This document shows, piece after piece, positions 1-53,367 of a stretch of 53,367 nucleotides of DNA (position 1 is the stretch's first letter; each line of letters opens with the position of its first letter). The DNA is from Modicisalibacter luteus DSM 23508 (lineage in GTDB: Bacteria > Pseudomonadota > Gammaproteobacteria > Pseudomonadales > Halomonadaceae). A program made the position numbers and the translations under genes. The DNA is taken from NCBI RefSeq assembly GCF_000378505.1, contig NZ_KB900008.1:1-53367 (forward strand). The letters are read 5' to 3'. A model generated the notes under the pieces. The model did no database searches, was not told where the DNA came from, and saw nothing but the letters and a program-made list of their open reading frames with translations.

Positions 1-12
1 AAGGAGGCAGAT

Positions 13-219
13 ATGACCCGAGGCGTCGGAGGGCATTCACCTGCAAACGTGACTCATCATCTAAAAGGCACCAACTTTCCTGCATCGCGGGCGGACCTTG
101 AAAAACAGGCCAAGGATAACGGCGCAGAAGAAGACGTTCTCGAAGTGATTCGAAACATGCCAGACGAGCAATACGAGGATATGGCAGGCGTTATGAAAGG
201 GATAGGAGAAGCTGAGTAA
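13..219 (+). CDS. DUF2795-family small protein
   Basis: A 68-residue soluble protein that starts with a perfect Shine-Dalgarno (AAGGAGG) at bases 1-7. The pattern of a short N-terminal leader, a central 'FPASRADL' segment and a C-terminal 'VLEVIRNMPDEQYEDM' segment is that of DUF2795, a family of small proteins often found beside stress genes; no reaction is known. It converges on the KGG stress protein at 322-672 and shares a hairpin terminator with it. The promoter lies outside the window. Family assignment is from recalled motifs. Confidence 0.85.
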   Translation: MTRGVGGHSPANVTHHLKGTNFPASRADLEKQAKDNGAEEDVLEVIRNMPDEQYEDMAGVMKGIGEAE

Positions 220-242
220 TTATTATCAGTGCTACTGGAGAA

Positions 243-278
243 GCAACAGGGGCAGATAAAAATATCTGCCCCTGTTGC
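243..278. terminator. Bidirectional hairpin terminator
   Basis: A perfect 16-bp inverted repeat (GCAACAGGGGCAGATA and its complement) around a 4-base AAAA loop lies between two convergent genes, DUF2795 on + and KGG on -. The stem is strong and the arms end in short A/T steps, so it most likely stops transcripts from both sides. Confidence 0.8.
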
Positions 279-321
279 CAGCTCGCTGCTACGTTAACAG
301 CTCTTATTGATAGCCGAACGA

Positions 322-672
322 TTAGGAATTACGGCCACCGCTGTTGCTGTTTTGCCCACCTTTCTTACCAGCTTCCGAGGCTTTTTCCGGATCGTTAGCG
401 AAATTTCCCCCGCTATGCTTGCCGCCCTTCTGGCCTGCTTCAGAGGCCTTCTCGGGATCATTAGCGAAGTTCCCCCCGCTATGCTGACCGCCCTTCTGCC
501 CAGCTTCAGAAGCTCTCTCAGGGTCATTTGCGAAGTTACCGCCACTATTCTGGCCGCCCTTGCTACCGATCTCTTCAAAGTGCTCGCGGTCATGGCTCTC
601 AGCGTTCGCCTTGCCACCTTTCTGACCCGCCTCGTTCACGGACATCCCTTCATCTTTGCGTTTATCAGCCAT
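322..672 (-). CDS. KGG-repeat general stress protein (YciG/con-10 type)
   Basis: A 116-residue, very hydrophilic, Gly/Lys/Asn-rich protein. It carries four to five copies of a roughly 20-residue unit with the core 'ASEAGQKGGxxSGGNFANDP', the KGG stress-induced motif of YciG and fungal con-10. Such proteins are intrinsically disordered and induced in stationary phase or desiccation; a structural protectant role is the usual inference. The start has a strong SD (AGGAGG) 7 bases upstream. Repeats are near-identical at DNA level, so unit number may vary between strains. Overlapping frames on both strands in this span are shadows of the repeat. Confidence 0.9.
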   Translation of the reverse strand: MADKRKDEGMSVNEAGQKGGKANAESHDREHFEEIGSKGGQNSGGNFANDPERASEAGQKGGQHSGGNFANDPEKASEAGQKGGKHSGGNFANDPEKASEAGKKGGQNSNSGGRNS

Positions 673-6260: not shown

Positions 6261-9200
6261 TCACAGCTCCATCACATACCCGTGGAAGACCAGCTTCACC
6301 TCGGCGCCCAGCCCTACTGTCTCGGCGGGCGTGGCGTAAAGGCCAGCTACCCCCTTGCCTGGCTCCAGGGCGATGCGTGAGCGCGCACCCCGGCGAAAGC
6401 TACCCGGCCCTACCGTATGGGCTGCAGCCAGCGTGTCGGGGGCGGCGGAGCTTGTGCCGATATTCAGGGTTGGCCAGGGCAGATCAGGGGAATCCACGAG
6501 CATGACTTTTTCAGGGTCGTACTGGCCGCCTGCCGCCACCATTGTCCCATTGGGTGCAATGCTGCCGGAGGTAAAGTTGCCCGATATGCGACTGCCGGAC
6601 AGCTCCACCCAACTGGTCGCGTCGAGCATGAGCGCACCATTGTAGGATTGCACTGCGAACAGAGTGGCCCCGTCTGCCGTGAACTCCAGATCGACAACGT
6701 TAGCGCCCACGGTGGATTCCTCGTACACCTTGGCCCAGGTAACCACCTCATAGGCACGCAAGTAAGGGTTGCTGGTCACGCCTACCGCCAGGAATTGACC
6801 ATCAGGACTGTAGGCCAGCGAAGGGACGCGCGCCTCCTGTGACGGCACCCCCGTAACCTTCGTCCAATCGGCAACGTTGTATAGCGTGAGGCGTGGCGAA
6901 CTGGAATGCCCCACCGCCAACTGCTTACCGTCCGGGCTAAAGGTGATCGCGGTCACATAATCGCCGCTGGCGAGCGTGGGCGTGCCGGCCACTAGCGTCC
7001 ACCCGCTTGTTTCGTACAGGGTGATGGCAGGGTCATAGATACCCACCGCCAACATCGTGCCATCAGGGCTGAATGCCAGGGCGTTGGCCTGCGAGCCAGC
7101 CATCAGCGTGATGTCCACCACCTGCGTCCAGTCGGCGGTATTGAACACGTACAGGTGGCTAGCGGTGGTGGTGACGGCCAGTAGGCTGCCATCGGCACTA
7201 AAGGCTATGGCTTCGACAAATCCATCCGTCGCCAGGTCGGCAACCTGGCTCCAATCCGCCGTCGATTGCACCATGACATACTTGGTTGTCGTGCCGGCAT
7301 CATGGGTCATCGCCAACAGGCTGCCGTCAGGACTGAACTGCACCGCGATTGAGTTGCTAGTGTTCACGGCGCTGCGTCCGCTGGGCGAGGCAGTGAAGAC
7401 GGCATTCACCACCCCCACTACATCGACGGCCTCGGGGAAAAACAGCGTGCCGGCGGGAAAGTCCAGGGACGTAGTGGCCCCACTCATGCCCAGGTTGAGC
7501 GCGTCGCTGGCCACGACTTGCTGAGACGCCGCGCGGCGAGTGGCGTTTGCCGCGCCGTTGGAGGCGGGGTCTGTCACGGTGTCGGGCAGGTAGTCAATGG
7601 CATTGACCCGCTTGCCGCCTGGCACGGTCACGGTCACGTCACGGCCAATGGCCACCGCATAAGGGGCGTCGGCCATGGCGCCCTCGCCCACGGCCAGCGC
7701 ATATGGTGCGTAGCTGTCTACCGTGGCGTTGCCTAGCGCAATCGCGCCTTGGCTGTTGTACCTTACCGCCGCGCTCTCACCGATGGCCGTACTGTTCGTG
7801 GTATTCCTGGTGGCATTGCCACCGATGCGCAGCCCCGTGCCGGTCAGGTCGCCAATCACGGCCTTGGCCTGACCGCCCAGCCCTAACCGCCACTCCAGGT
7901 CTACCGTATACACACGGTTTAATTGGCGGGTCGATACCCACAGTCGTCCGTACTTCTCCAGGTACAGCGAAAACGACCATTGCGGCGATGACTCCAGATT
8001 GGTGGCCTTGATCGTCGGGTTATAGGTTTGCGACACCACCTCTCGGGTCACCATATCCACGACCACGACATAACTCCGCGTTCCCAACCATAGCCAGTTT
8101 CGGGCAGTGTCGTGGGCAATGGAGTGATAGGCGGTATCCAGGTTCTGCGCGGTCAGCGCATCATCAAAGAACACCTCGCCGGTTTCCAGGTCGATGACGC
8201 GATACAGCGGCACGCCGCTCCAAATGCCGCCCATGGTCGGAACCCAAACATAGCGCTGCGCCTGCACGGCGATACCGCCGCCATCCTGCTCATCGACGGC
8301 GTCCGCCAGGGCATTGGCCACCGTGGCGTCCAGTGTCCAGGTGCCGGCCAGGGTGTCATAGTCAAACACGGCCACCGGGTAGGTGTACCCTGGCCAAAAG
8401 CACGACACTATCGCCTTGTTGCGCGACGGCACCAGGACCACCTCGCGCGACGTGATAGCGCTGAAATCAACGCCGGTAAGGGTGGGCGCTGACACGCTGG
8501 CGTCAGCCAGGGTATACACCACCACCGGGCACACGGTCGAATCGGCCGCCCGCGTGACGGTGCCGCCTTCGGTGACGATGACCAGTTGCGCCCCGTCTCC
8601 TGTAAACGTCAGGCTTTGCGGCGCGAAGTTGCTGGTTGCGAACTCACCGCTGGCGGTGATGGCGGCAGAGTCGATGGTTTGCGCCACTGTCCAGGTGGCC
8701 GTGTCGTAGATCAAAGCCTGATAGCTGGTGTCGTAACTGATGGCCAGGCGCGTACCATCGGGCGAAAACACGGCGGTAACCGGCGCGTTGCCGGCGCCGT
8801 CATCCAGCACCGCCACTCGGCTTGAGTTAGTAGTGTCGAATACCAAGGCACCCACCTGCGAGGAACCGCCGCCGCCCAGGATGACCACGTATTGCTCGTC
8901 AGGTGACTTTACCAGGCGGTTCACCAGGTTGGTGCCCGCGCTGGTAGCAAGCTCAATCCAGCTCACCGGCTCGGGCCAGACGTGGCCAATGCTCAAATCA
9001 TCGGCCAGGCTGCCGCCATGCACCTCGCGGTCGCCGCCTGACAGTAGCACCTGGTCTTTGCCCAGCACACCCCATTGCACCATGCCCGCCTGGATAGTGC
9101 CCGCCGTGGGGCGCGCCTCTACCGTATCACCGGATGCCCAGGCCGCCACGGTGGTGCCCTCGCGTCCACGCTCCACGGCCAGCGTGTTGCCACTGGCCCC

Positions 9201-9377
9201 GGTCACATAGACGATCTCGAGCGCGCCCTCGGTGTTGGTCAGGGTCAGCGCAAAGCGCTTGTCAGCGGTGGCCTCCGAGAAACTGGCGCCGCCTTGCTGA
9301 AGGGTCAGGGTGGTGTCGCCAGTCGCCACGGCGCTGGCAAGCTGGGTCGAGAAATTGTTGATGAAATCGAAATTCAT
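6261..9377 (-). CDS. Tail fibre protein with two beta-propellers and YadA-type head repeats
   Basis: A protein of 1038 residues. Residues 1-98 are a phage tail-fibre adaptor ('EIVYVTGASGNTLAVERGRE'). Residues about 150-500 form a divergent WD40/YVTN-like propeller. Residues about 515-585 hold YadA-head repeats ('STAIGESAAV', 'GAIALGNATV', 'YALAVGEGAM', 'YAVAIGRDVT'), typical of trimeric adhesins. Residues about 675-965 hold seven regular blades marked by FSPDGxxLAV-type motifs near 681, 727, 769, 813, 857, 899 and 940. A short C-terminal beta domain follows. It takes the place where lambda has M-L-K-I-J and probably recognises the receptor. The combination within one fibre is unusual. Confidence 0.8.
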   Translation of the reverse strand: MNFDFINNFSTQLASAVATGDTTLTLQQGGASFSEATADKRFALTLTNTEGALEIVYVTGASGNTLAVERGREGTTVAAWASGDTVEARPTAGTIQAGMVQWGVLGKDQVLLSGGDREVHGGSLADDLSIGHVWPEPVSWIELATSAGTNLVNRLVKSPDEQYVVILGGGGSSQVGALVFDTTNSSRVAVLDDGAGNAPVTAVFSPDGTRLAISYDTSYQALIYDTATWTVAQTIDSAAITASGEFATSNFAPQSLTFTGDGAQLVIVTEGGTVTRAADSTVCPVVVYTLADASVSAPTLTGVDFSAITSREVVLVPSRNKAIVSCFWPGYTYPVAVFDYDTLAGTWTLDATVANALADAVDEQDGGGIAVQAQRYVWVPTMGGIWSGVPLYRVIDLETGEVFFDDALTAQNLDTAYHSIAHDTARNWLWLGTRSYVVVVDMVTREVVSQTYNPTIKATNLESSPQWSFSLYLEKYGRLWVSTRQLNRVYTVDLEWRLGLGGQAKAVIGDLTGTGLRIGGNATRNTTNSTAIGESAAVRYNSQGAIALGNATVDSYAPYALAVGEGAMADAPYAVAIGRDVTVTVPGGKRVNAIDYLPDTVTDPASNGAANATRRAASQQVVASDALNLGMSGATTSLDFPAGTLFFPEAVDVVGVVNAVFTASPSGRSAVNTSNSIAVQFSPDGSLLAMTHDAGTTTKYVMVQSTADWSQVADLATDGFVEAIAFSADGSLLAVTTTASHLYVFNTADWTQVVDITLMAGSQANALAFSPDGTMLAVGIYDPAITLYETSGWTLVAGTPTLASGDYVTAITFSPDGKQLAVGHSSSPRLTLYNVADWTKVTGVPSQEARVPSLAYSPDGQFLAVGVTSNPYLRAYEVVTWAKVYEESTVGANVVDLEFTADGATLFAVQSYNGALMLDATSWVELSGSRISGNFTSGSIAPNGTMVAAGGQYDPEKVMLVDSPDLPWPTLNIGTSSAAPDTLAAAHTVGPGSFRRGARSRIALEPGKGVAGLYATPAETVGLGAEVKLVFHGYVMEL

Positions 9378-20948: not shown

Positions 20949-23021
20949 CTAGATACGGGGTTTGGCGACGCGCCGGCGGCGCTTCCTTGGAGCCACCTTG
21001 GGTGGTGGCAGGACATCAGAGGCTTCGCTGTCGCCATCCGGATAAAACAGCAGAGCGTTGCGCTCCCACTCCATGGCCCAGGGCGGTGGGTTATCCCAGA
21101 CGAACTTTTCCGCGCCAAGCAGGATGAACACCGTCAGGTTGTAGACGCAGAGATCGAAGGCCTCGTTGGGGCGCTTGCCGGGTTTGCTCCACTTGCCCGT
21201 GGCTGGGTCGCGCACCTCGTAGGTCAGTTCGTCGAACCACCACCGTCCCAGCCAGTTGGGCGTGTGCATGTAGCCCGCACCGGGATCGTCACGATCCATC
21301 ATCCCGACGACGGTATCCTTGAGCAGGTCAGTACCGAGGATGTACAGCGGCACATCGCCCCGGGCACGGGAGCGGCGCGATTTGCGGCTGGTGTTGTCGG
21401 GCCATGTCTTGGAGACCCGGTTGGCTGTCTTGGAGCTGCCTCCCTTGACCAGATAGGCACGCGATTGCAGGCCATCGCGGCGCAGCCGTCTGTACCAGTC
21501 ATAGGCCTGCGAGGTGACTGACTCGTCGCCATCGGATTCGCCACCGGTATCCACCGCCATGGCAGTAATGGGCATCCTGCGACCGCTGCCGTCGGCGAGC
21601 CGATACGACCGGTTCAGGACATCGCGGGTCAGCAGGTCCCAATCCTCGGGACGGGTCGCCGGGTTGATCGGTCGGGGCTCCTGATCGTTGTCCGAGCCGC
21701 GATCCTCGCTGATGTTGAAACGGTCGATGACCCACATCTCGCGATTTCGGCCCCAGCCATGAACCTGCACCACGAAGCGCCGGTTTTTGCCACCCTGCAC
21801 GTCGACGGCCGCCGTCAGAAAGCGCACGCCATGCGGCACGGTACGCCGCTCGACGTCCTCGGACCGCTCCAGCAGATGCAGGCTCGAACGCTGGGAAGTC
21901 GTGACCTTGTTCAGGTACGGACGGCCCCAGTCGACGTTAGTGACTGACTGAAGATCTTTCTGATTGCCGGTGACTTCGAACGTCTCTTCGGCCGCCTTGA
22001 GCTTGGTCAGCAGGGACTGCCACGTTTGCAGTGCCGCCGCCGGCCCCTCCATCCAGAATGAGGCGATGCGTGTCTCGCGGGGAGTGCCGATCAGTTCGCC
22101 ATCGATAGTGAGCTCGCAGCCCTCCGGCACCCACCGGCCATGTATGTTGAGGCTGCGCTTCTGGGTATGCTCCAGCTCGGCTGAACAGTGCGGACAGAAG
22201 ACGTGACCGCGTTGCATGTTGAAGTTCTCCTTGATCGGCATGAACCAGTGCCGGCAGCGTGGCTGCGGACATTGCCAATACCAGCGGCGGCGGTCGCCCT
22301 GGTTGTAGATGTCGAGGATGCCGGTGGTCGGTGGTGCCCGATGCGGTTCATCACTGGGCTGTCGCCAGTCCGGGTCGATGATTAGCCGTCCTGGAGAGGA
22401 TTCGACCAAGGTCATGCCGGTTGAACCGAACGACTGGGTACGCTTACTAGCGAGCACCCAGCCCGACCCTTCACCGCCAACGTTCTCGACCATGCGGTCG
22501 TAGTCGGTCAGCAATACGAACTGGTAATCCGAACTGGCGAAAACATTCTTAGAGGGCCATTTGATGGCCAGATAGTTGCCTGCTCGAAACGTCTTGTCGT
22601 GAACATTATTGTCGTGGCCGCGGGGGCTCAACCGGCTGGCAATATCGGGCGAGGCGTTGAAGGCTCGCTCAAGGCGCTTCTTGCTGTACTCCCTGGCTTT
22701 CTCTTCACTGATCTGAACGATCAGCCCATCACCTGGGTCGTTGATGATCTTGTAGCAAACGAAGCCATCGATCAGGCCGATCGTCTTACCGGTACGTGCG
22801 GGTCCGACGAAGACCACGGCGTCATACCGACGTGAGCCCAGGCAGTCCATTGGCTCGATGACATAGGGAGCTTTCTTGGGGTCCCATAGCGACTTGGTTC
22901 CGTTGCCGTGAACCACATACATCGACTCGGCTACCGCATCGCTGACCTTGACGCGCCGGGGTGGTCGCAGAAGCGTGGCGATGTCCCGGCGAATAGCGGC
23001 TGCATCGGCAGTGCTATTCAT
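20949..23021 (-). CDS. Terminase large subunit (lambda gpA family)
   Basis: The start chosen is Met at 23021, preceded by GAGGGGG and overlapping the small-subunit stop (ATGAATAG). It gives 690 residues. There is a Walker A motif 'GPARTGKT' at residues 73-80, a Walker B-like 'FVLLTDYDRM', and a zinc-binding pair of Cys motifs (CPQPRC and CPHC) near 235-265. A nuclease domain follows in the C-terminal half ('AAVDVQGGKNRRFVVQVHGW'). PF05876 members cut at cos and pump DNA, so this phage is predicted to use cohesive ends. The upstream in-frame Met (23039) lacks a ribosome site. Confidence 0.95.
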   Translation of the reverse strand: MNSTADAAAIRRDIATLLRPPRRVKVSDAVAESMYVVHGNGTKSLWDPKKAPYVIEPMDCLGSRRYDAVVFVGPARTGKTIGLIDGFVCYKIINDPGDGLIVQISEEKAREYSKKRLERAFNASPDIASRLSPRGHDNNVHDKTFRAGNYLAIKWPSKNVFASSDYQFVLLTDYDRMVENVGGEGSGWVLASKRTQSFGSTGMTLVESSPGRLIIDPDWRQPSDEPHRAPPTTGILDIYNQGDRRRWYWQCPQPRCRHWFMPIKENFNMQRGHVFCPHCSAELEHTQKRSLNIHGRWVPEGCELTIDGELIGTPRETRIASFWMEGPAAALQTWQSLLTKLKAAEETFEVTGNQKDLQSVTNVDWGRPYLNKVTTSQRSSLHLLERSEDVERRTVPHGVRFLTAAVDVQGGKNRRFVVQVHGWGRNREMWVIDRFNISEDRGSDNDQEPRPINPATRPEDWDLLTRDVLNRSYRLADGSGRRMPITAMAVDTGGESDGDESVTSQAYDWYRRLRRDGLQSRAYLVKGGSSKTANRVSKTWPDNTSRKSRRSRARGDVPLYILGTDLLKDTVVGMMDRDDPGAGYMHTPNWLGRWWFDELTYEVRDPATGKWSKPGKRPNEAFDLCVYNLTVFILLGAEKFVWDNPPPWAMEWERNALLFYPDGDSEASDVLPPPKVAPRKRRRRVAKPRI

Positions 23022-23514
23022 GATCGTCCCCCTCAGCATCCGTTACCGCGGCCTGGTACATCTGCTCGCGCAACGTATCGATCGTGGCCTGGACCCGCTC
23101 GAGCGCTTCCGGAGACAGACCTGCGTCGCGCTCAAGCATGTCAGGCAGCGAGTCCAGCCCCGCCGCGACCGTTTTGGCCAGCGTGCTGAGCTCACGTGCA
23201 AACTCGTCATCGGGGATCAAGCGCCGGATCTCTTTCTCGTATTTGAGGCGCTCGTTCTCTGATTGGTACCAAGCCTTGCGCATGTCAGGAAACTGGTCGA
23301 GATCGAGCCCCCCGCCCACCTCGCCTCGCTCTTGGTATAACGCCGGGCCGGCATCGGCTAGGGAGTAGACCGGATTGCCACGCTTTTTCCCGGCCGGAGT
23401 CACCCCGGCATCCTGGAGCCGTTTGGTCACTGTACGGCGATCCATGCGAAACGCCTCGGCGATCCGGCTAATGGACCAGATGTAGGCATCCTGTCGGTCA
23501 ATGACTTCACCCAT
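23014..23514 (-). CDS. Terminase small subunit, Nu1-like (DUF1441 type)
   Basis: A 166-residue protein with an N-terminal winged-helix/HTH ('WSISRIAEAFRMDRRTVTKR'), a middle segment 'LRQ/LKYEKEIRRLIPDDEF'-type linker, and a helical C-terminus. This is the layout of Nu1-like and DUF1441 small subunits, which bind cosB and recruit the large subunit. It is the first gene of the packaging operon and overlaps it by 8 bases. The cos site should lie just upstream, on its right side in this window. Confidence 0.88.
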   Translation of the reverse strand: MGEVIDRQDAYIWSISRIAEAFRMDRRTVTKRLQDAGVTPAGKKRGNPVYSLADAGPALYQERGEVGGGLDLDQFPDMRKAWYQSENERLKYEKEIRRLIPDDEFARELSTLAKTVAAGLDSLPDMLERDAGLSPEALERVQATIDTLREQMYQAAVTDAEGDDHE

Positions 23515-23871: not shown

Positions 23872-23949
23872 GGCTACCTCCTCGCGGTTTGCGCATCGCT
23901 CTCATAGATACGATGCTGACAGAGCATTCATCGAGCAGGAGAGCGCTTC

Positions 23950-24174
23950 GTGGCTGACAATATCTGGGTAGTAGTACACGGTGATACCGAGTGGGCCGTA
24001 CGCAAAGAAAGCAGCAAGCAGCCAGCGCAGATCACCAAAACGCAGGAAGAGGCTATCGAGGCTGGCCGTGAAATGGCGAAGCAGTTAGGAGTAGAGCTGC
24101 TAATCCAAGGCGAGGACGGGATGATTCGAGACAAGAACAGCTACGGAAATGATCCTTACCCACCAAGTGGCTGA
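23950..24174 (+). CDS. DUF2188-type small protein
   Basis: A 74-residue protein with a GTG start and AGGAGAG upstream. The pattern 'VHGDTEWAVRKESSKQPAQI', 'TQEEAIEAGREMAKQLG' and a closing 'GEDGMIRDKNSYGNDPYPP' is that of DUF2188, small proteins common in prophages and plasmids with no known reaction. It lies on the strand opposite to the late operon in the cos-side region, so it is probably expressed from the prophage independently of lysis. Confidence 0.8.
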   Translation: MADNIWVVVHGDTEWAVRKESSKQPAQITKTQEEAIEAGREMAKQLGVELLIQGEDGMIRDKNSYGNDPYPPSG

Positions 24175-24383
24175 TCAATATTTACACGCAGCACTGCCTC
24201 GTTCCGCTCCAAAGTAATAACAATCGATAGCAATGCTGCATATAGCTGAGGTCGTCAATTCGCTGCCATAGCTCAAACGGCGCATCACTATGTGCCGCGA
24301 AAAACAATGCTTTTCAAGGGTTCATCAAAGGTTGGCCCACGAACGGATTTGATACCCTGCTTCCTCACCTTGAAGGAAGCCGC

Positions 24384-24584
24384 TTGAATATCACCTACCA
24401 TCCGACAGCCCTCGCCAACCGGACTGCCCCGAGCATGCATCGATGGGGCATTTTGATGTGTGATCCAGAGGACGATAATTGTCGTCTTTTGAGCGAGAGC
24501 TTTAAGACCTACCTAGAAGCAGAAACCAAGGCCAATGAGTTGAATCGGCAGGCTTGGAGGAAGGCTTACTGGCCTTCTGAGTAG
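24384..24584 (+). CDS. Hypothetical small phage protein
   Basis: A 66-residue protein with a TTG start and GAAGGAAG six bases before it. It reads 'HRWGILMCDPEDDNCRLLSE', then a helical part 'YLEAETKANELNRQAWRKAY'. No family recognised. Same strand as the DUF2188 protein 200 bases upstream; both may be lysogen-expressed accessory genes. The 210 bases between them show no clear gene. Confidence 0.5.
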   Translation: MNITYHPTALANRTAPSMHRWGILMCDPEDDNCRLLSESFKTYLEAETKANELNRQAWRKAYWPSE

Positions 24585-24616
24585 CCGGCGACACTCAACA
24601 TTGGCTACAAAGTGGT

Positions 24617-24724
24617 TCACCCTCCACCTAGAGCCCAGCGGCCAATGCCCCATACTGACAGCAACAGCCAAGGCAGTAATAGACCGGTTATTCGCTGGGC
24701 TATGGTTGGAGCATGGGCAGGCAT
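24617..24724 (-). CDS. Possible 35-aa membrane peptide
   Basis: The frame 'MPAHAPTIAQRITGLLLPWL' continues through one hydrophobic helix to 'GIGRWALGGG'. AGGA lies 7 bases before the ATG. The same frame stays open a further 110 bases upstream without a normal start, so this might be the end of a decayed longer gene. Orientation matches the late operon, just downstream of the lysis genes, so a small lysis or antiholin role is conceivable but unproven. Confidence 0.3.
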   Translation of the reverse strand: MPAHAPTIAQRITGLLLPWLLLSVWGIGRWALGGG

Positions 24725-24834
24725 AGCGAGGTCCTGCTCAAAGGCCGGCGTCACCTCACTAAGCCGGGTGTAGGTACGGGAGGTGGCAAGGAAAATTTTC
24801 TTGAAAGTAACATTTTGTGATCTAGAGTAAATAT

Positions 24835-24955
24835 GAGCCTACTGATTCCGCTGAAACCACTATCACCCATGGGATCTGCTGACAGTAGGCTGTAACAAAA
24901 AAAGCTTACGTGTTCAGGGCTTTCCACACTTCCCGCTTACGAGCGGGGTTTTTTT
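24835..24955 (+). ncRNA. Candidate small RNA A
   Basis: An 8-bp perfect inverted repeat (AGCCTACT at 24835-24842 and AGTAGGCT at 24885-24892) is followed by a strong intrinsic terminator, CCCGCT-TACG-AGCGGG (24932-24947), then a run of seven Ts. No frame of note crosses it. It sits 50 bases upstream of the two paralogous RNA-like units below. Confidence 0.4.
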
Positions 24956-25000
24956 GCTTATATGAATGAGCCTAGACACACCTTGCAAGCTCGAGAGATC

Positions 25001-25146
25001 GTCTACTACGTTGCCTAATGTGGTTCAGGCATTGGCAGCTAAAGTCCTCGTGGCCAAGTGTTGCTCCAAAGCTGGAGAATGCCAATGCTTAAGAGAGGCG
25101 AAATGCGTGTAAGAACGGCCCCAGCTGTGAAGCTCGGGCTTTTTTT
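25001..25146 (+). ncRNA. Candidate small RNA B, paralogue 1
   Basis: Begins with GTCTACTACGTTGCCTA. Predicted stems: GCATTGGC (25029-25036) with GCCAATGC (25081-25088); CTCCA with TGGAG (25064-25077) inside it; and the terminator stem GCCC(C)AGCT-GTGA-AGCT(C)GGGC (25118-25139) with seven Ts. A TTGCAA box lies 18 bases before TACGTT. The unit at 25271-25414 repeats the same plan with compensating changes, which supports a structured RNA rather than a coding repeat. Target or function unknown. Confidence 0.55.
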
Positions 25147-25270
25147 ATGCCTAACGCAAAAGTCCCATCGATGGCAGGGCTTTGAACAGACCGCTTTACT
25201 ACCTCACGGCAGCCGGCGTATGGCAGGCTTACAGGAAAAGAACAATCAAAACTTGATGGCACGAAGGACT

Positions 25271-25414
25271 GTCTACTACGTTGCCTAGTGTCGTTGAGGC
25301 ATTGGTAGCCAGACTCCTCATGGCCAGGCAGTCTCCAGGGACGGAGAAAGTCAATGCTTGCGGCAAGCTCAGCGTGTAGAAGAACGGCCCCAGCTGTGAA
25401 GCTCGGGCTTTTTT
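25271..25414 (+). ncRNA. Candidate small RNA C, paralogue 2
   Basis: A second copy, offset by about 270 bases from paralogue 1 and roughly three-quarters identical. The opening GTCTACTACGTTGCCTA and the terminator are near-identical. The outer stem keeps pairing through G-U wobbles (GCATTGGT at 25299 with GTCAATGC at 25350). The inner hairpin is kept as CTCC/GGAG. A TTGATG box stands at the same distance upstream. Six Ts end the unit. It lies just downstream of Rz1 on the opposite strand. Confidence 0.55.
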
Positions 25415-25501
25415 GTGCCTAACACAAAAGCTCAATCGGATGGCGGGGCTTGGCATATGGATGTCACGTTAGACTCATGAGACCGGCACAGAGCTCAGGC
25501 C

Positions 25502-25774
25502 TCACTCTTCCCCGCTGACATCATGGGCCAGAATCTCGACAATGCTAGCCCGATCGACGTTGAACCGCCGACGCTGCTGTTCGTATGCGGCCAGCAAATC
25601 CAGCAAGCCGACATTACTATTGTTGCTCAGACTCGGAGCCGGCAACGGCTTCACCAGGTGCGGCGGCACCGTGCACAGCTGCAGCACTGGCGTCGGCTTC
25701 GTCACTGAGTTGGCGCACCCAACCAGTAACGCCATCAGGAAGAGGCTGATCAGCCCAATCACGCGTCTCCGCAT
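25502..25774 (-). CDS. Rz1-like outer-membrane spanin lipoprotein
   Basis: The start chosen is Met at 25774, giving a lipoprotein signal: 'MRRRVIGLISLFLMALLVGC' with the lipobox LVGC. The mature part is Pro-rich ('KPTPVLQLCTVPPHLVKPLP'), as in Rz1. About 58% of the gene lies inside the Rz frame in another register, the classic embedded Rz/Rz1 layout. The product should bridge Rz across the periplasm and fuse the inner and outer membranes at lysis. It is longer than lambda Rz1, with an extra helical tail ending in acidic residues. Confidence 0.85.
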   Translation of the reverse strand: MRRRVIGLISLFLMALLVGCANSVTKPTPVLQLCTVPPHLVKPLPAPSLSNNSNVGLLDLLAAYEQQRRRFNVDRASIVEILAHDVSGEE

Positions 25775-26048
25775 CGTTACGCTCCAGGGTGTCGAGTAAC
25801 TGGCGCTTGTCCGCCATGCTTTGTGCGATCGCTTCCAAGCGAACATCGCGGCGGCTCAACGCTTGGCTGATTGCCTCGGTCTGCGCTTTCTGCCAGGCCA
25901 GCGCGTCCTGAGTCACCGCTGCAGCCTCTAGGGCCTGGTCCCGCTCAAGAATCAGCGCTTCGGCTCGGAGATCAGCCAGTCGCCAGGTCAAACCAGCGAA
26001 AACGACCGCTATGATCGTCACGAGCCACGGCGCCAGGCGTATCAGCAT
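25617..26048 (-). CDS. Rz-like inner-membrane spanin
   Basis: A 143-residue protein with one N-terminal membrane anchor ('LAPWLVTIIAVVFAGLTW') followed by a long periplasmic coiled coil rich in Ala, Glu, Gln and Arg (about 25-105). It overlaps the endolysin end by 77 bases and contains the start of Rz1. This is the i-spanin layout of lambdoid phages. Confidence 0.88.
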   Translation of the reverse strand: MLIRLAPWLVTIIAVVFAGLTWRLADLRAEALILERDQALEAAAVTQDALAWQKAQTEAISQALSRRDVRLEAIAQSMADKRQLLDTLERNDAETRDWADQPLPDGVTGWVRQLSDEADASAAAVHGAAAPGEAVAGSESEQQ

Positions 26049-26517
26049 TGCGCACCCCCTTCAGGCACAGTTCCCGCTCGGCGGCCCGGCGTCTCACCAG
26101 GCCACGTAAACGCTCGCCACTGGCATACACCCAGCGAGGCAGCTCGTTGCAGGCCCCCTCGATGTCGCCAGCGTTGACCTTTCGAAGCAGAGTCGAGTTC
26201 TTCAGCGCACCGGCACCGACGTTGAACACGAACGACACCAGCGCGGCCCGCGTCTCGACAGCGATCGGTACGGTTACCTGCTCATCTACCGCCTCAAGGG
26301 CCGCGCCAAGGTCGGAACGCAACAACGCCGCGCATTCCTGGGGTGACTTCACTTGGCCAGACTGAGCGGTTGCCGTGTGCCCGGTACAGACCGTCCAGAT
26401 GCCGACCGCGTCGCGGTAGCTCTGCAGCTCGGTTCCTTCGAAGTTGCTCACTACGATCGAAGCGAGAGCCAGTACTCCGCCGCCGGCCGCGGCAGCCAAT
26501 CGTTTATTCAGGCGCAT
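25972..26517 (-). CDS. SAR-type endolysin, GH24 lysozyme
   Basis: The start chosen is Met at 26517 (181 residues), since the longer frame adds a Cys-rich leader that overlaps the holin. Residues 1-26 ('MRLNKRLAAAAGGGVLALAS') form a weakly hydrophobic Ala/Gly helix typical of signal-arrest-release endolysins. The catalytic triad is seen in 'FEGTELQSYRDAVGIWTVCT': the Glu of FEG, the Asp of YRD and the Thr of WT. It cleaves the MurNAc-GlcNAc bond of peptidoglycan once released from the membrane. It overlaps the holin by 14 bases. Confidence 0.93.
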   Translation of the reverse strand: MRLNKRLAAAAGGGVLALASIVVSNFEGTELQSYRDAVGIWTVCTGHTATAQSGQVKSPQECAALLRSDLGAALEAVDEQVTVPIAVETRAALVSFVFNVGAGALKNSTLLRKVNAGDIEGACNELPRWVYASGERLRGLVRRRAAERELCLKGVRNADTPGAVARDDHSGRFRWFDLATG

Positions 26518-26791
26518 CTTTATCACCCTGGCGCCGCCGCTGGTCGAAGTGGCGCCAAACGTCGAAAGACAGCCGCAGGAACACAGCGGCCAAGCCACCA
26601 ACGCTTACCAGGTCAGCCATCAGCACCTGGACCCCACCGAACGTCACTAACGGCACATTGAGGAGAGATACCAGCCCGCTGGGCTCGGGAGTAATAGCGA
26701 AGCTGGCTGTCTGCGCTTTCGCTGCGAGACTTGTGGCGGACACGCCAGAACCGCCGCCATAGGCGATCAATCGGCCGGTATCGAGTTTCAT
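26504..26791 (-). CDS. Putative holin or pinholin
   Basis: A 95-residue protein directly upstream of and overlapping the endolysin. It has a Ser/Ala-rich first half and a hydrophobic span near 38-73 ('LVSLLNVPLVTFGGVQVLMA', 'LVSVGGLAAVFLRLSF'), then a charged C-terminus ('RRRQGDKDAPE'), as in small holins. With a SAR endolysin, a pinholin that only depolarises the membrane would suffice. Assigned by position and topology. Confidence 0.7.
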   Translation of the reverse strand: MKLDTGRLIAYGGGSGVSATSLAAKAQTASFAITPEPSGLVSLLNVPLVTFGGVQVLMADLVSVGGLAAVFLRLSFDVWRHFDQRRRQGDKDAPE

Positions 26792-26923
26792 AGACAGTCC
26801 TGAACTTCTGGCACGGTTACGCCTCGCGGCGGTGCGCGATGAAACGACAATGGGGAAAAGGAAAGGATGGCGTCCAGCCGGGTGAAAGGGAGCGCTGAGG
26901 TCGCAACCGGGGACATAACAGAA

Positions 26924-26956
26924 GCGCCTCGGCTACCGGGTAGGTAGCCGAGGCGC
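26924..26956. terminator. Strong 14-bp hairpin upstream of the lysis genes
   Basis: GCGCCTCGGCTACC (26924-26937) pairs perfectly with GGTAGCCGAGGCGC (26943-26956) across a 5-base loop. It lies in the 310-base gap between the retropepsin gene and the holin. Neither side has a full T-run. By position it resembles the tR' terminator ahead of lambda S, where late antitermination acts; it could also end the retropepsin transcript. Confidence 0.5.
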
Positions 26957-27102
26957 AAAAATGACAAGCTTAGCTGAAAGGTATCACCAACCGGTCGGAA
27001 TTACAACATATAGTACCAGCACCGAACGCAAGGCACCTTATACTGTACCCCAGCAAGAATTTCTCGAATCAACCTCAAGGCCAAGGTTAAGCGAGACATA
27101 GA

Positions 27103-34095: not shown

Positions 34096-34803
34096 ATGAA
34101 TAGGGAAAAAGATGAATCGTCCGTCGGCGATCGCCTACGAAAGCTGATGCAAGACAAAGGCTTGGGGGAGAATGAGCTGGCACGTCAGTCTGGCGTAACG
34201 CAACCCACTATTCATCGTATCCTGACAGGTGAGAGCAAGTCACCCAGACATACGAACTTGGATAAACTTGCAAAGGCACTTGGAACCTCCAGTAGTTTTC
34301 TCTCCTATGGTTCGTCTGGAGAAAATGAGCCCATGCAGACCAAGGCCGATTACAACGTCAGTTCCGTAGCTCATCTCCAGTCACGTCAGCAGTACGTCTA
34401 TCCCATTATTAACTGGGTTCAGGCCGGACAGTGGACGGAAGCGGTCAATCCCTACGAGCCGGGCTGCGAGCAGGAAGTCGTGGCGACCGACTACCAGGCC
34501 AAGGGCTATGCCTTCTGGTTGGAGGTCCGCGGCGACTCGATGACTTCGCCGGCCGGCTTGAGTGTGCCCGAAGGAATGATGATCCTAGTCGATCCCGAGG
34601 AAGAAGCCCTCAACGGTAGCCTAGTCGTGGCACAGTTGGAGGGAAGCGATGAAGCCACGTTCAAGCGCCTAGTAATCGATGGCGGCCAGAAGTTTCTCAA
34701 GCCGCTCAACCCAGGCTACCCACTAATCCCCATCAACGGTAACTGCCGTCTGATCGGCGTGGCGGTCGAGATGAAGATGAGCCTACGCCCCAGGACGCAC
34801 TGA
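34096..34803 (+). CDS. CI-type repressor with LexA-like (S24) self-cleavage domain
   Basis: A 235-residue protein. The N-terminal HTH is at about 24-42 ('ENELARQSGVTQPTIHRILT'). A flexible linker follows, then the S24 domain with the Ala110-Gly111 cleavage bond ('WVQAGQW'), Ser148 in 'RGDSMTSP' and Lys190 in 'ATFKRL'. It keeps the prophage silent and should cleave itself when RecA filaments form, so the prophage is SOS-inducible. It is divergent from the Cro-like gene across three operators and ends at a terminator. Confidence 0.95.
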   Translation: MNREKDESSVGDRLRKLMQDKGLGENELARQSGVTQPTIHRILTGESKSPRHTNLDKLAKALGTSSSFLSYGSSGENEPMQTKADYNVSSVAHLQSRQQYVYPIINWVQAGQWTEAVNPYEPGCEQEVVATDYQAKGYAFWLEVRGDSMTSPAGLSVPEGMMILVDPEEEALNGSLVVAQLEGSDEATFKRLVIDGGQKFLKPLNPGYPLIPINGNCRLIGVAVEMKMSLRPRTH

Positions 34804-38598: not shown

Positions 38599-38814
38599 AT
38601 GGCCACAGGTAAATTGATGGACCCCGATCAATGGCGCCGCGCCCGCTTTGCCGGTACGCCACCAGGTATGACAACAGTGCGGCGGTGGTGCCGCGACGGG
38701 GTGATCCCTGCCAAGAAGATCGGGGGGAGCTGGTATATCGATCTTGATGCTGAGCGCATGCAGACCGGCAACGAACTGGCCGATGATGTGCTCAAGAGCA
38801 TGAGGGTATCCTGA
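38599..38814 (+). CDS. Excisionase (Xis-like)
   Basis: A 71-residue protein with the winged-helix pattern of Xis/PF07825 ('MTTVRRWCRDGVIPAKKIGG', 'SWYIDLD'). It bends attachment-site DNA and directs the integrase toward excision. Its stop overlaps the integrase start by one base. Confidence 0.88.
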   Translation: MATGKLMDPDQWRRARFAGTPPGMTTVRRWCRDGVIPAKKIGGSWYIDLDAERMQTGNELADDVLKSMRVS

Positions 38815-39956
38815 TGGCAGCACGCCCGCGGACTCGCCGTAAGCGGAGCCTAGAGCCCAACCTGTACGAAAGCCGGGGATTCTATACGTACAGGAACCCA
38901 GCGACTGGCACTTGGCATGGCATGGGGTCGGACAAGGCTAAAGCGCAGGCGGCAGCACGCGTGCTGAATGCTCGCTTAGCTCACGATACCGACCTGGTCG
39001 CCCGGGTCATGGGGACTGAAGGCGTCACGCTGAAGCATGCCGCAAAGGTTTTTCTAGAGGAGCGAGTCGACGCCCATCCCAAGCTGAGCGCCAGCTCAAA
39101 GCAAAACAAGCACTATCGCACTCGCAGAATAGTGAAGGATCGAGGCGACACTCGCCTCGACCAGATCGACACCAGGTGGTGCGCCGAATACCTAGACGAG
39201 AATTACAAGGGCGATCCCTACATCCAGTATCGTTCAGTGCTGTCGCAGATATTCACCTTTGCCCAGACGAAAGGCTGGATGAACAACAACCCCGTCGCCC
39301 CGACACGTAAAAGCGATGAAGCCTACACCAAGCAGCGTGTACGCCTCACTGTCGAGCAGTACCAGGCCATTCACGCCATGGCGCCGGACTGGTTCAAGAT
39401 TGCCATGGAATTGGCCCTGACTTGCCTGTTCGGTCGCGCCGAAGTGGTCGCGGCTCGTTACGATCATATCTATGAAGGTGCACTGCACTATGTGCGCCAG
39501 AAAACGCGCGAACGATCCAAGACAGCCTTCGTAGCAATTACCATGACGCCCGCCCTAGAAGACCTGATTCAGCGCAGCCGACGATTGCCACCAGTGTCGC
39601 CTTTCATCGTGCACCGCTCACCGAAACGCATCTCGGCCGAGGCCAAAAAGAGAGAGCATTGGAGCAGCATAACGCCTGATATGATCTCGCGAGAGTTCGC
39701 CAAGTTACGCGCAAAGGTAGCCAGTATTACCGCCCTGCCCGCTGTAGCTCAGCCGACCTTTCATGAGATCAGGTCGCTGGGCTCTCGATTGCTTGAACTC
39801 AAGGGTGTGCCGGTCAGTGACATCCAGGTATTGATGGGACATGCCGATGAAGAGATGACCCAGCACTATCTCGATGGGCATGGCACTCGCTGGCAGCAAG
39901 CCAAGGGTAACGTGTACAACATGGGCGCCCTGTTAGCTGTCCCAAAACCCAGCTAG
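38814..39956 (+). CDS. int: Tyrosine integrase, lambda Int type
   Basis: A protein of 380 residues. The N-terminal arm-binding domain matches PF09003 ('LEPNLYESRGFYTYRNPATG'). The core-binding domain covers about 70-165. The catalytic set is Arg208, Lys230, His317/Arg320 (HEIR), His343 and Tyr352 ('MGHADEEMTQHYL'). It should integrate and, with Xis, excise the prophage at the tRNA-Pro 3' half located 103 bases downstream. Confidence 0.95.
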   Translation: MAARPRTRRKRSLEPNLYESRGFYTYRNPATGTWHGMGSDKAKAQAAARVLNARLAHDTDLVARVMGTEGVTLKHAAKVFLEERVDAHPKLSASSKQNKHYRTRRIVKDRGDTRLDQIDTRWCAEYLDENYKGDPYIQYRSVLSQIFTFAQTKGWMNNNPVAPTRKSDEAYTKQRVRLTVEQYQAIHAMAPDWFKIAMELALTCLFGRAEVVAARYDHIYEGALHYVRQKTRERSKTAFVAITMTPALEDLIQRSRRLPPVSPFIVHRSPKRISAEAKKREHWSSITPDMISREFAKLRAKVASITALPAVAQPTFHEIRSLGSRLLELKGVPVSDIQVLMGHADEEMTQHYLDGHGTRWQQAKGNVYNMGALLAVPKPS

Positions 39957-40379: not shown

Positions 40380-41723
40380 TTAGCTCGCGCCACGCTCGCC
40401 CTGCCGATGCCGATAGAAGAAGCGCAGCATTTCCTTCGCGGCGTCGGGGCCCTTGGGGTCGGTATAGCTTCCCCTTGCACTCCCTCCCGCCCAGGCGTGG
40501 CCCGCACCGTGTATCCGCCACTGCTCCAGACGCGGCTCGCCCTTGGCATCATGATGCGAGGTACGCGTATAGGCATGGCCATTGGTTACCCGCCCCTGTT
40601 CCACTGTGACCCTGGCGTTGCCCTCTTGCTCGCTCGCCGTTTCGCCCTTTTTACGCATGGCGGCGTACTGGGCGGCAACGCGATCCGCATTGCTGGGGTG
40701 CACGGTCGTGTCACGATCGCCATGAAAGATGATGGCGGGCACCTCCGACACCCACCCGGATTCTCGCGCTGCAGCACCGCCTCCCAGGGGACCCGTGCCG
40801 CCCTGCATCGCCCCCAGGGCATCGGGGAGGCTCTGGGCCACGCCGTGGGGCAGCCCGGAGTGCACGCCCACCGCCGCAAACAGATCCGGATAGGTCATTG
40901 CCAGGGTCGTCGCCATGGCCCCACCTGCCGAGAGCCCGGCGACATAGACCCGACCCGCATCGAGCCCGTGCGTGTCGATGATCTGACGGGTCATGCCGGC
41001 AAGGATCGCTGGCTCACCACCCTCACGCTGCTGGTCTTCGGCCTTGAACCAGTTCCAGCACTTCGAGCTGTTGGCGGTCATCGGCTGGGCCGGATAGAGC
41101 ACGCAACACAGCTGCTCTTCGGCCAGTCGGTTCATGTTGGTTCCGGCAGCGAAGTCATCAGGATTCTGCGTGCAGCCATGCAGCATGACCACCAGCGGCA
41201 GTGCCTGACCGTGATGGCCGCTGGGGATGTACAGCTTGTAATCGCGCGTGCCGATCCGGTTGGTAAAGCGACCGGCCGTGAATGTGCCGGGCAGTAGCTC
41301 CTCGGTGGTGCCCCGAGCATGCTCGGACTGCGCTCCGGCGCCTCGAAATCTGAGCCACTTGTCGCGCCATGCTGCAGGCACCCCAATATCGCCGTTCGGG
41401 AAACTCCCGGTGTAAGGCTGTCTGGCCTGGTCAAACGTGGAAAAAGGCGTCGCTCGCGCTGTCGATTCACCTGTCCGGTCAGATGCCGCCTCAGCAGATG
41501 CTGGCCTGGACGCCGCCATCTCCTCGCCGAGGACCTGGCAGCTCCCCTCGAAGATATTGCCTTTGCGGTACGATTTATTCGGCGTCTCCTCACCCCTCGT
41601 GCCCTGGTTCTCCCCGGGTGTCGCGCCCTGCAGGACGGCCATGGCCTCGTGCAGCTTCCCGGCGCGGGTCAGCCGCGTCGCTTCTTCCATTCGCTTCGTC
41701 ATGGTGGCGTCAATCATCGTCAA
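40380..41723 (-). CDS. PHB-depolymerase-family esterase
   Basis: A protein of 447 residues. Residues about 1-105 are a helical, low-complexity leader without a signal peptide. The alpha/beta-hydrolase domain (about 140-445) has the oxyanion loop 'VVMLHGCTQNPDD', the lipase box 'GLSAGG' with Ser265, an acid in 'FHGDRDTTVHPSNAD' and His in 'IHGAGHAWAGG'. This is the short-chain PHA-depolymerase type 1 (esterase LpqC-like) family. Lack of a signal peptide suggests action on intracellular PHA granules or soluble esters. The RHH regulator 16 bases upstream forms an operon with it. Confidence 0.88.
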   Translation of the reverse strand: MTMIDATMTKRMEEATRLTRAGKLHEAMAVLQGATPGENQGTRGEETPNKSYRKGNIFEGSCQVLGEEMAASRPASAEAASDRTGESTARATPFSTFDQARQPYTGSFPNGDIGVPAAWRDKWLRFRGAGAQSEHARGTTEELLPGTFTAGRFTNRIGTRDYKLYIPSGHHGQALPLVVMLHGCTQNPDDFAAGTNMNRLAEEQLCCVLYPAQPMTANSSKCWNWFKAEDQQREGGEPAILAGMTRQIIDTHGLDAGRVYVAGLSAGGAMATTLAMTYPDLFAAVGVHSGLPHGVAQSLPDALGAMQGGTGPLGGGAAARESGWVSEVPAIIFHGDRDTTVHPSNADRVAAQYAAMRKKGETASEQEGNARVTVEQGRVTNGHAYTRTSHHDAKGEPRLEQWRIHGAGHAWAGGSARGSYTDPKGPDAAKEMLRFFYRHRQGERGAS

Positions 41724-52848: not shown

Positions 52849-53079
52849 CGTCATATCTAGAGGTATCAGTGGCCAGGCAGCATGGCCGGCGTACAAATTG
52901 CGATACGTCGAAGCCCAAGCCACCTATGGCTACTAGTTCGCTATCGCTTAAGCACACGGCAACGCGCCAGGCACCTACAGCCATCGGCGTTAAACGCTAA
53001 TGTGGAGCGCCGTGGGTGCTGCAACCAAGCTGGGTCCGTGAGGGTCCAGGCACCGGAAGTAAACCAGAACCAGACCATG

Positions 53080-53098
53080 CCGCCTGCGGGCGGTTTTC
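53080..53098 (+). terminator. Hairpin terminator
   Basis: CCGCC-TGCG-GGCGG followed by TTTT. The 230 bases before it hold no good frame; they may encode a short RNA or a lost gene. Confidence 0.55.
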
Positions 53099-53121
53099 CT
53101 GCCTAACGAAAGGAGAGCGAC

Positions 53122-53367
53122 ATGGATATCTTGGAAGTGAACGACGTTCAGCGTACAGGGAGCGAACAGCTGGCTCGCTTCGATAGCGAAGGGCAGGCGC
53201 GACACATGGAGTCAGCGTTGAGCAAGATGTTTCCTGAACTGGAGATAGCAGCGTTGGTATCTACGCCTGAGCCAGAGCAAGCTGAAGCCCCCCTGCCCAT
53301 TCGTGTCCGCGAGAAATCGGAATGGGATGCTGGCATGGTTCTAGAAGCATGGGTCAAAAACACGACA
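53122..53367 (+). CDS. Partial hypothetical protein, runs off the window
   Basis: ATG 53122 has AAGGAGAG six bases upstream. The frame stays open for 82 codons to the last base: 'MDILEVNDVQRTGSEQLARF', then 'MESALSKMFPELEIAALVST' and a Pro/Glu-rich linker. No family recognised from this part. Confidence 0.65.
   Translation, partial: MDILEVNDVQRTGSEQLARFDSEGQARHMESALSKMFPELEIAALVSTPEPEQAEAPLPIRVREKSEWDAGMVLEAWVKNTT

Follow-up and report, generated by a model that had tools for sequence, protein, structure and literature searches.

Between the lysis genes and the terminase genes of a lambdoid prophage in Halomonas lutea DSM 23508 lie two short and closely similar stretches of DNA, each ending in an intrinsic terminator, and the question raised by this locus is whether they are small-RNA genes and, if so, of what kind. 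The window, meaning the whole stretch of 53,367 nucleotides that was analysed, belongs to a genome of 4,533,090 bases in 42 contigs. The units are best read as a candidate strain-restricted family of paralogous prophage sRNA genes, analogous to the Pas sRNAs of Escherichia coli, and it is plausible from their sequence that both units of the window are expressed as small RNAs.

Prophage setting of the units

Protein profile searches, including Pfam and PHROGs, identify a lambdoid prophage in the window with an integrase (38814-39956), an S24-type repressor (34096-34803), O-like and P-like replication proteins, lysozyme, Rz and Rz1, together with packaging, head and tail genes (DUF1441 small terminase, GpA large terminase, gpW, lambda-family portal, Clp-type protease, capsid E and minor tail protein). 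This gene order bears out the first-pass annotation, which had assigned the units to the cos-side region of a lambda-type prophage. Rz1 and the gene for the small terminase stand about 2 kb apart, and the units occupy this interval in the orientation opposite to that of the late genes. They are preceded on their own strand by a DUF2188 gene and an orphan ORF of 66 amino acids, the homologues of which, among 275 genomes of the family, are confined to the own genome and one congener. The landmarks of the interval are:

23014..23514, minus strand: terminase small subunit (DUF1441), the left boundary of the interval (profile search)
23950..24174, plus strand: DUF2188 protein of 74 aa within the interval (71.4 bits against a cutoff of 22; phrog_3220)
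24384..24584, plus strand: 66-aa orphan ORF (homology search of family genomes)
25502..26791, minus strand: lysis cassette (Rz1, Rz, lysozyme and a small holin-like protein), the right boundary of the interval (profile searches, PHROGs)

The small protein of the lysis cassette is taken to be holin-like from its position and size. In phage lambda, the interval from Rz to cos carries cargo of the bor moron type, encoded on the other strand from the late genes; the units resemble them in strand and interval, but bor encodes a protein. Elsewhere in the window, a tail-region protein of 1038 amino acids (6261-9377, minus strand) matches WD40-type beta-propeller models (PF12894, 69.7 bits; PF00400, 51.4 bits), which seemed unusual for a phage, and a gene for a PHB-depolymerase-type esterase (40380-41723, minus strand) adjoins the integrase end of the prophage.

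Two homologous units in tandem

The two units and their terminators are as follows:

25002..25146, plus strand: unit 1 (u1), sRNA-like body and terminator (sequence, blastn, folding)
25117..25146, plus strand: u1 intrinsic terminator, GGCCCCAGCT-GTGA-AGCTCGGGC and T run (sequence, fold, one-mismatch scan)
25272..25414, plus strand: unit 2 (u2), paralogous sRNA-like body and terminator (sequence, blastn, folding)
25386..25414, plus strand: u2 intrinsic terminator with the same hairpin as u1, and T run (sequence, fold, one-mismatch scan)

As had been claimed for both units, they share an identical start, GTCTACTACGTTGCCTA, at 25001 and 25271, 270 bases apart, and each closes with a terminator hairpin followed by a run of six to seven T residues that can be read directly from the sequence. 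A simple terminator scan omits these two hairpins because their stem contains a C-C mismatch, and folds and a scan allowing one mismatch recover both. Since u1 and u2 are 79% identical (blastn, E 9e-33), their likeness is, on sequence grounds, one of homology rather than chance.

Five copies in one genome

The first-pass annotation had described a pair of duplicated units, and the duplication stands but the count does not, as blastn finds a family of five members in the H. lutea genome. Three further copies are matched by u1, on the contigs C22 (3373-3552, 93% identity), C37 (576-732, minus strand, 80%) and C17 (55150-55307, 78%), while a sixth match, on C32, covers the terminator only. The extent common to all five copies runs from TCTACTACG (TGTACTACG in C37) to the T run of the terminator, the hairpin of which is the same in four of them and carries one change in C17; the sequence 5' of u2 and of the C17 copy differs from that 5' of u1 and of the C22 and C37 copies. 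A locus of the same genome at C7:196058-196208 (27 bits) combines a stem of other sequence with a similar terminator, and its status as a sixth member is unproven, a covariance model without the terminator giving no match there at E up to 1.

The surroundings of these copies are informative about their history. The C22 copy has a lysis cassette as its neighbour (Rz1, Rz, lysozyme and a holin-like gene, at 88-99% amino acid identity), and next to the C37 copy there is a lysozyme fragment (residues 96-176, 41%, E 4e-12, six-frame tblastn). Near the C17 copy there is a diverged version of the 66-aa ORF, 1.3 kb upstream, with an integrase-core transposase gene further off. When the window is compared with C22 by blastn, its single unit aligns twice, once as u1 with the left flank (24360-25182) and once as u2 with the right flank (25271-26963), and for this reason the C22 copy has the form expected of a recombination product of the two-unit array, or else the array may have grown from one such unit. 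Because u2 is nearer to the C17 copy (84%) than to u1 (79%), the two unit types probably predate the prophage of the window.

It could be argued that such copies are neutral repeat DNA, functionless fossils of intergenic phage DNA that spread as prophages accumulated and recombined. The confinement of the family to one genome, the position of the C22, C37 and C17 copies outside recognised complete prophages and the mixed flanks of C22, as recombination between units would give, are all in line with this; the terminators have nevertheless been kept and the predicted fold exceeds that of column shuffles (see below), and we regard neutral repeats as very improbable.

Similarly, the position of the units, antisense to the late operon and between lysis and terminase genes, would suit an antisense or convergent element, the RNA of which would base-pair in cis with the spanin-terminase part of the late transcript, or in which polymerase collision would tune late expression. 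Tblastn searches with the terminase subunits of the window found nothing on C22 and C37, both taken whole, or on the part of C17 that was examined, so that on the two whole contigs the copies persist apart from these genes, and cis-antisense action needs no conserved fold; an element of this sort is, in our estimation, just as doubtful as the neutral repeats.

Several repeats of other kinds were also observed. The left end of the window (9-627) matches the start of C22 (L016 1-616) at 90% identity in an alignment of 621 bases, and this stretch of C22 encodes a KGG-repeat stress-type protein (PF10685, 125.5 bits). The right end (53073-53367) is 97% identical to a stretch of C17 (L018 9713-10007), which suggests a repeat at the end of the contig of the window. 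A run of 12 CAGCCC hexamers (L018 5810-5881) lies some 270 bases ahead of the C17 unit.

Distribution outside the genome

No full-length homologue was found in the 274 other genomes of the family. With u1 as the blastn query, three of the 275 family genomes were matched, including the own genome, and the other two by the terminator only. A covariance-model search, which the first-pass annotation had proposed for related prophages, likewise brought no full-length homologue from beyond the own genome. The model R1, built from the five sequences, matched 16 of the 275 family genomes at E up to 0.1, with only the five known copies above 150 bits and everything else at or below 37.3 bits; the matches in the 15 other genomes (22.7 to 37.3 bits) were set aside, and in the 6 loci of other genomes with an alignment, out of a set of 8 loci with one from the own genome, most of the signal comes from the terminator. 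R2, the model from which the terminator was removed, was run over an order sample of 390 genomes, among them the own genome and others of the family. At E up to 0.01 it matched two of them, the own genome and G522, and the G522 match (26 bits, with E 0.0055 for a single genome) was rejected as one expected by chance over 390 genomes.

Viral and mobile sequences gave the same picture. R1 had no match at E up to 1 in 71 viral loci around related terminases, the 72nd such locus belonging to the phage of the window; distant blastn searches of phage and plasmid records with 24780-25430 had none, and in IMG/VR only this phage was matched, by a contig that does not differ from the window in the 4,990 bases that were compared. 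A 17-base pattern of the unit start occurs once in each of six stretches of the wider genome contigs, which belong to Bacteroidota, Bacillota and other phyla, and these are taken as chance because R1 finds nothing in those loci at E up to 10. The earlier statement that the units match no known family agrees with Rfam 15, as nothing in the window reaches the gathering score of any family; with the threshold relaxed to E 10, the stretch 23900-25550 gives only two weak matches to snoRNA/lncRNA families, on the minus strand and outside the units. An identity as tRNA or tmRNA was rejected by search. In the open-licence literature on prophage sRNAs and on Halomonas sRNA, no title among the matches listed concerns these units.

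Coding potential

One open frame overlaps the first unit:

24966..25112, plus strand: 48-codon open frame overlapping u1, probably no gene (ORF list, translated comparison)

That no coding frame is shared, as had been stated, is not strictly true, given that this frame is open through the first half-unit in all five copies. A small protein gene is thus a rival explanation, in which 24966-25112 would encode a peptide and the u2, C17 and C37 copies would be decaying. The whole frame is also open in C22, at 88% amino acid identity, and variation after an alignment gap at column 62 peaks at third codon positions (5, 2 and 10 differences at the first, second and third positions between u1 and u2; 1, 0 and 4 between u1 and C22). 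This gap is a one-base deletion in u2 and C17, which puts both copies in a different frame afterwards. Before it, the comparisons between copies reveal no third-position bias (4, 5, 3 for u1-u2; 2, 6, 4 for u1-C37; 2, 4, 1 for u2-C17), and no Shine-Dalgarno-like sequence was seen by eye before the ATG. The 48-aa frame has no match in PHROGs and none by tblastn in phages, on which grounds membership of a protein family was rejected, and the own genome is the only match among 275 family genomes. Coding by the unit family appears unlikely in view of the one-base indel, the lack of third-position bias before the gap and the lack of a visible ribosome-binding site, and a small protein gene is accordingly given a low probability, although the third-position excess after the gap makes coding in u1 and C22 conceivable.

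Predicted structure and covariation

The predicted fold of each unit contains a nested stem, P2, around an inner hairpin:

25024..25093, plus strand: u1 nested stem P2, core GCATTGGC/GCCAATGC, around a CTCC/GGAG hairpin (folds)
25294..25362, plus strand: u2 nested stem P2, core GCATTGGT/GTCAATGC with two G-U pairs, around a UCUCC-AGGGAC-GGAGA hairpin (folds)

For the body without the terminator, the alignment of the five copies folds at -24.8 kcal/mol against a shuffled mean of -16.7, and 1 of 300 column shuffles was as good. The copies differ individually, with z scores for the full unit of -1.64 (u1), -2.22 (u2), -3.15 (C22), -4.07 (C37) and -1.12 (C17), and for the body alone of -0.75, -0.63, -2.63, -2.58 and -1.25 in the same order. 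Across the five copies the pairing probability is 0.90-1.00 for the hairpin P4, 0.73-0.98 for the terminator and 0.44-0.96 for P2; for P1 it is 0.98 in u2, 0.85 in both C37 and C17, 0.46 in C22 and 0.01 in u1, and for P3 it is 0.85 in u2, 0.35 in u1 and near 0 in C22, C37 and C17. The named pairs are standard in 94.4% of the 215 cells of the five-copy alignment. Variable columns make up 16 of 58 paired and 26 of 50 unpaired positions, a comparison biased towards the structure, which was derived from the same alignment.

It had been suggested that the pairing of the outer stem is kept by wobbles while the bases differ. The wobbles are real, as u2 has the two G-U pairs, but over the five copies the pair changes do not rise above shuffles: one pair with a double change was found among the homologues, a number reached in 378 of 500 shuffles in a comparison that has little power with five close sequences. 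The covariation test thus gives the predicted fold no support.

RNAs that act as CsrA/RsmA sponges are defined by several ANGGA motifs in loops. The u2, C37 and C17 copies contain two overlapping ANGGA motifs, one in the hexaloop of P4 and one running into its stem, and u1 and C22 contain none; the sponge identity was rejected, as the motifs are not in every copy.

Upstream unit and expression signals

A third element stands before the pair:

24801..24828, plus strand: promoter-like pair TTGAAA-16-TAGAGT before unit 0 (sigma-70-like scan, weak)
24835..24957, plus strand: unit 0, the upstream unit, a AGCCTACTG/CAGTAGGCT stem followed by an intrinsic terminator (terminator scan, fold)

A third terminator-ended unit just before u1 had been reported, and the simple scan does find its terminator. 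Its fold has a z score of -2.35 in the window and -1.28 in the C22 version; it also precedes the C22 copy, and the C37 copy is preceded by its 3' part only. The promoter-like pair has a counterpart in C22 (TTGTAA / TAGAGT) and none in C37 in the alignment. Over a region of 4 kb the scan returned two matches, one before unit 0 and one beyond u2, with 1.7 expected in shuffles, a count near chance, and it found no sigma-70-like pair at u1 or u2. The boxes of the form TTGNNN that had been placed at equal distances upstream are indeed there (TTGCAA at 24983, TTGATG at 25253), 18 bases before u1 and u2 and likewise in C22 and C17, but C37 has TGGNNN and the boxes have no good -10 partner. A sigma-54 promoter at the units was weighed by eye on the sequence and dropped. 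RNAs of u1 and u2 may come from transcription that reads through unit 0, from processing, or from a promoter that the scan does not recognise.

These signals also bear on the view that the units are a terminator cassette or 3' untranslated region, in which terminators would shield the lysis operon from plus-strand transcripts of the moron genes and the unit 0 promoter and the bodies would be functionless. Three successive plus-strand terminators and the lack of a promoter match at u1 or u2 speak for it, and so does a minus-strand hairpin that follows each of the four copies folded with their 3' flank (strong in C17, moderate in C22, weak after u1 and u2) and resembles the minus-strand terminators of related prophages, one of which (L156) lies just downstream of Rz1. 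On the other hand, the whole 108-nt body is conserved in five copies, with paired columns less variable, and this conservation counts against a cassette because a terminator needs the last 30 nt only. Such a cassette is unlikely, though less so than the other alternatives discussed.

Among 22 related loci (19 from the family and 3 viral, with L151 and L059 apparently the same phage), terS and Rz1 could both be located in 13; a plus-strand terminator-like site lies between them in 2 of the 13 and two sites in none, sites in the first 300 bases of a stretch being uncounted, against three in the window. The minus-strand hairpins just 3' of the units are at 25150-25190 and 25418-25455 in the window and at 1648-1690 in L005.

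A candidate family of prophage small RNAs

The sRNA reading draws on the homology of the copies, their number and location, the terminators and a predicted fold better than that of shuffles. The points against it are that the scan shows no promoter at u1 or u2, that covariation among the copies does not exceed shuffles, that the z scores of the bodies alone are weak (-0.75 for u1 and -0.63 for u2), that P1 has a probability of 0.01 in u1, that the duplexes predicted with gene starts of the window (see below) do no better than those of shuffled units, and that the copies are confined to one genome. On balance, we give an even chance to the proposal that u1, u2 and unit 0 are small-RNA genes which a lambdoid prophage carries as moron cargo between its lysis and terminase genes.

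According to this proposal, the three units would be carried on the strand opposite the late genes, and transcription would possibly start at the unit 0 promoter with partial read-through. Each unit would yield an RNA of about 140 nt with a closing helix (P1) that pairs its 5' end with a 3' part (25102-25109 in u1, 25371-25378 in u2), the central stem P2, the inner hairpin P4 and the intrinsic terminator, which may double as a 3' end of the Hfq type, its stem and poly-U protecting the RNA. The five copies in H. lutea would have arisen as units duplicated and related prophages accumulated, and would then have diverged and recombined. Action would presumably be in trans through base pairing, and the best guess for a seed is an invariant CCUC at alignment columns 45-48, in the inner region, which could pair with Shine-Dalgarno sequences; over columns 44-48 the probability of being unpaired averages 0.40-0.82. 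Predicted duplexes with 53 hand-picked gene starts of the window, calculated ignoring accessibility, were not above those of shuffled units (9, 9 and 7 of 30 as good), and the rest of the window contains no exact complement of the units longer than 12 nt.

The prophage sRNA literature is mostly enterobacterial, among the matches listed, and the nearest known parallel is that of the Pas sRNAs. PasA-D of E. coli lambdoid prophages are intergenic and typically lie beside the holin/lysozyme operon (PasA, PasC, PasD1); they occur in several copies per genome through multiple prophages, end in a 3' intrinsic terminator with poly-U, and have been demonstrated by Northern blot and through Hfq-linked interactions (PMC13192938). 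The units are likewise intergenic beside lambdoid lysis genes, multi-copy and terminated intrinsically, whereas Pas copies lie far apart rather than in tandem and their expression has been demonstrated (PMC13192938). A blastn search with the u1 body, made at the level of 20,395 E. coli records, where the Pas genes reside, gave no match; nor did this search reveal any sequence relation to AgvB. The AgvB anti-sRNAs of EHEC, two-copy phage sRNAs acting in trans against a host sRNA, and thus on host regulation, resemble the units as phage-encoded small RNAs kept in two copies (PMC4104026). The sRNA svsR of prophage NC-SV, which acts on the host, shares a lambdoid prophage origin, but is encoded at the 3' end of cI and not in the lysis-terminase interval (PMC12803456). 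As the Pas and AgvB parallels exist and no sequence relation to them was found, the units are, by analogy, orphan candidates of an already known kind, prophage sRNAs.

If they are sRNAs, the presence of this lysis-adjacent, sRNA-like family in the prophage of a halophile would suggest that the interval is a more general landing site for RNA cargo, and five paralogues in one strain would offer a compact system for studying sRNA origin and divergence. A bolder and improbable extension is that fast-diverging, strain-specific prophage sRNAs, as paralogues in co-resident prophages, regulate each other's or host mRNAs through the anti-Shine-Dalgarno (CCUC) region; if true, several phages of one bacterium would be joined in a riboregulatory network that gains new specificities by tandem duplication.
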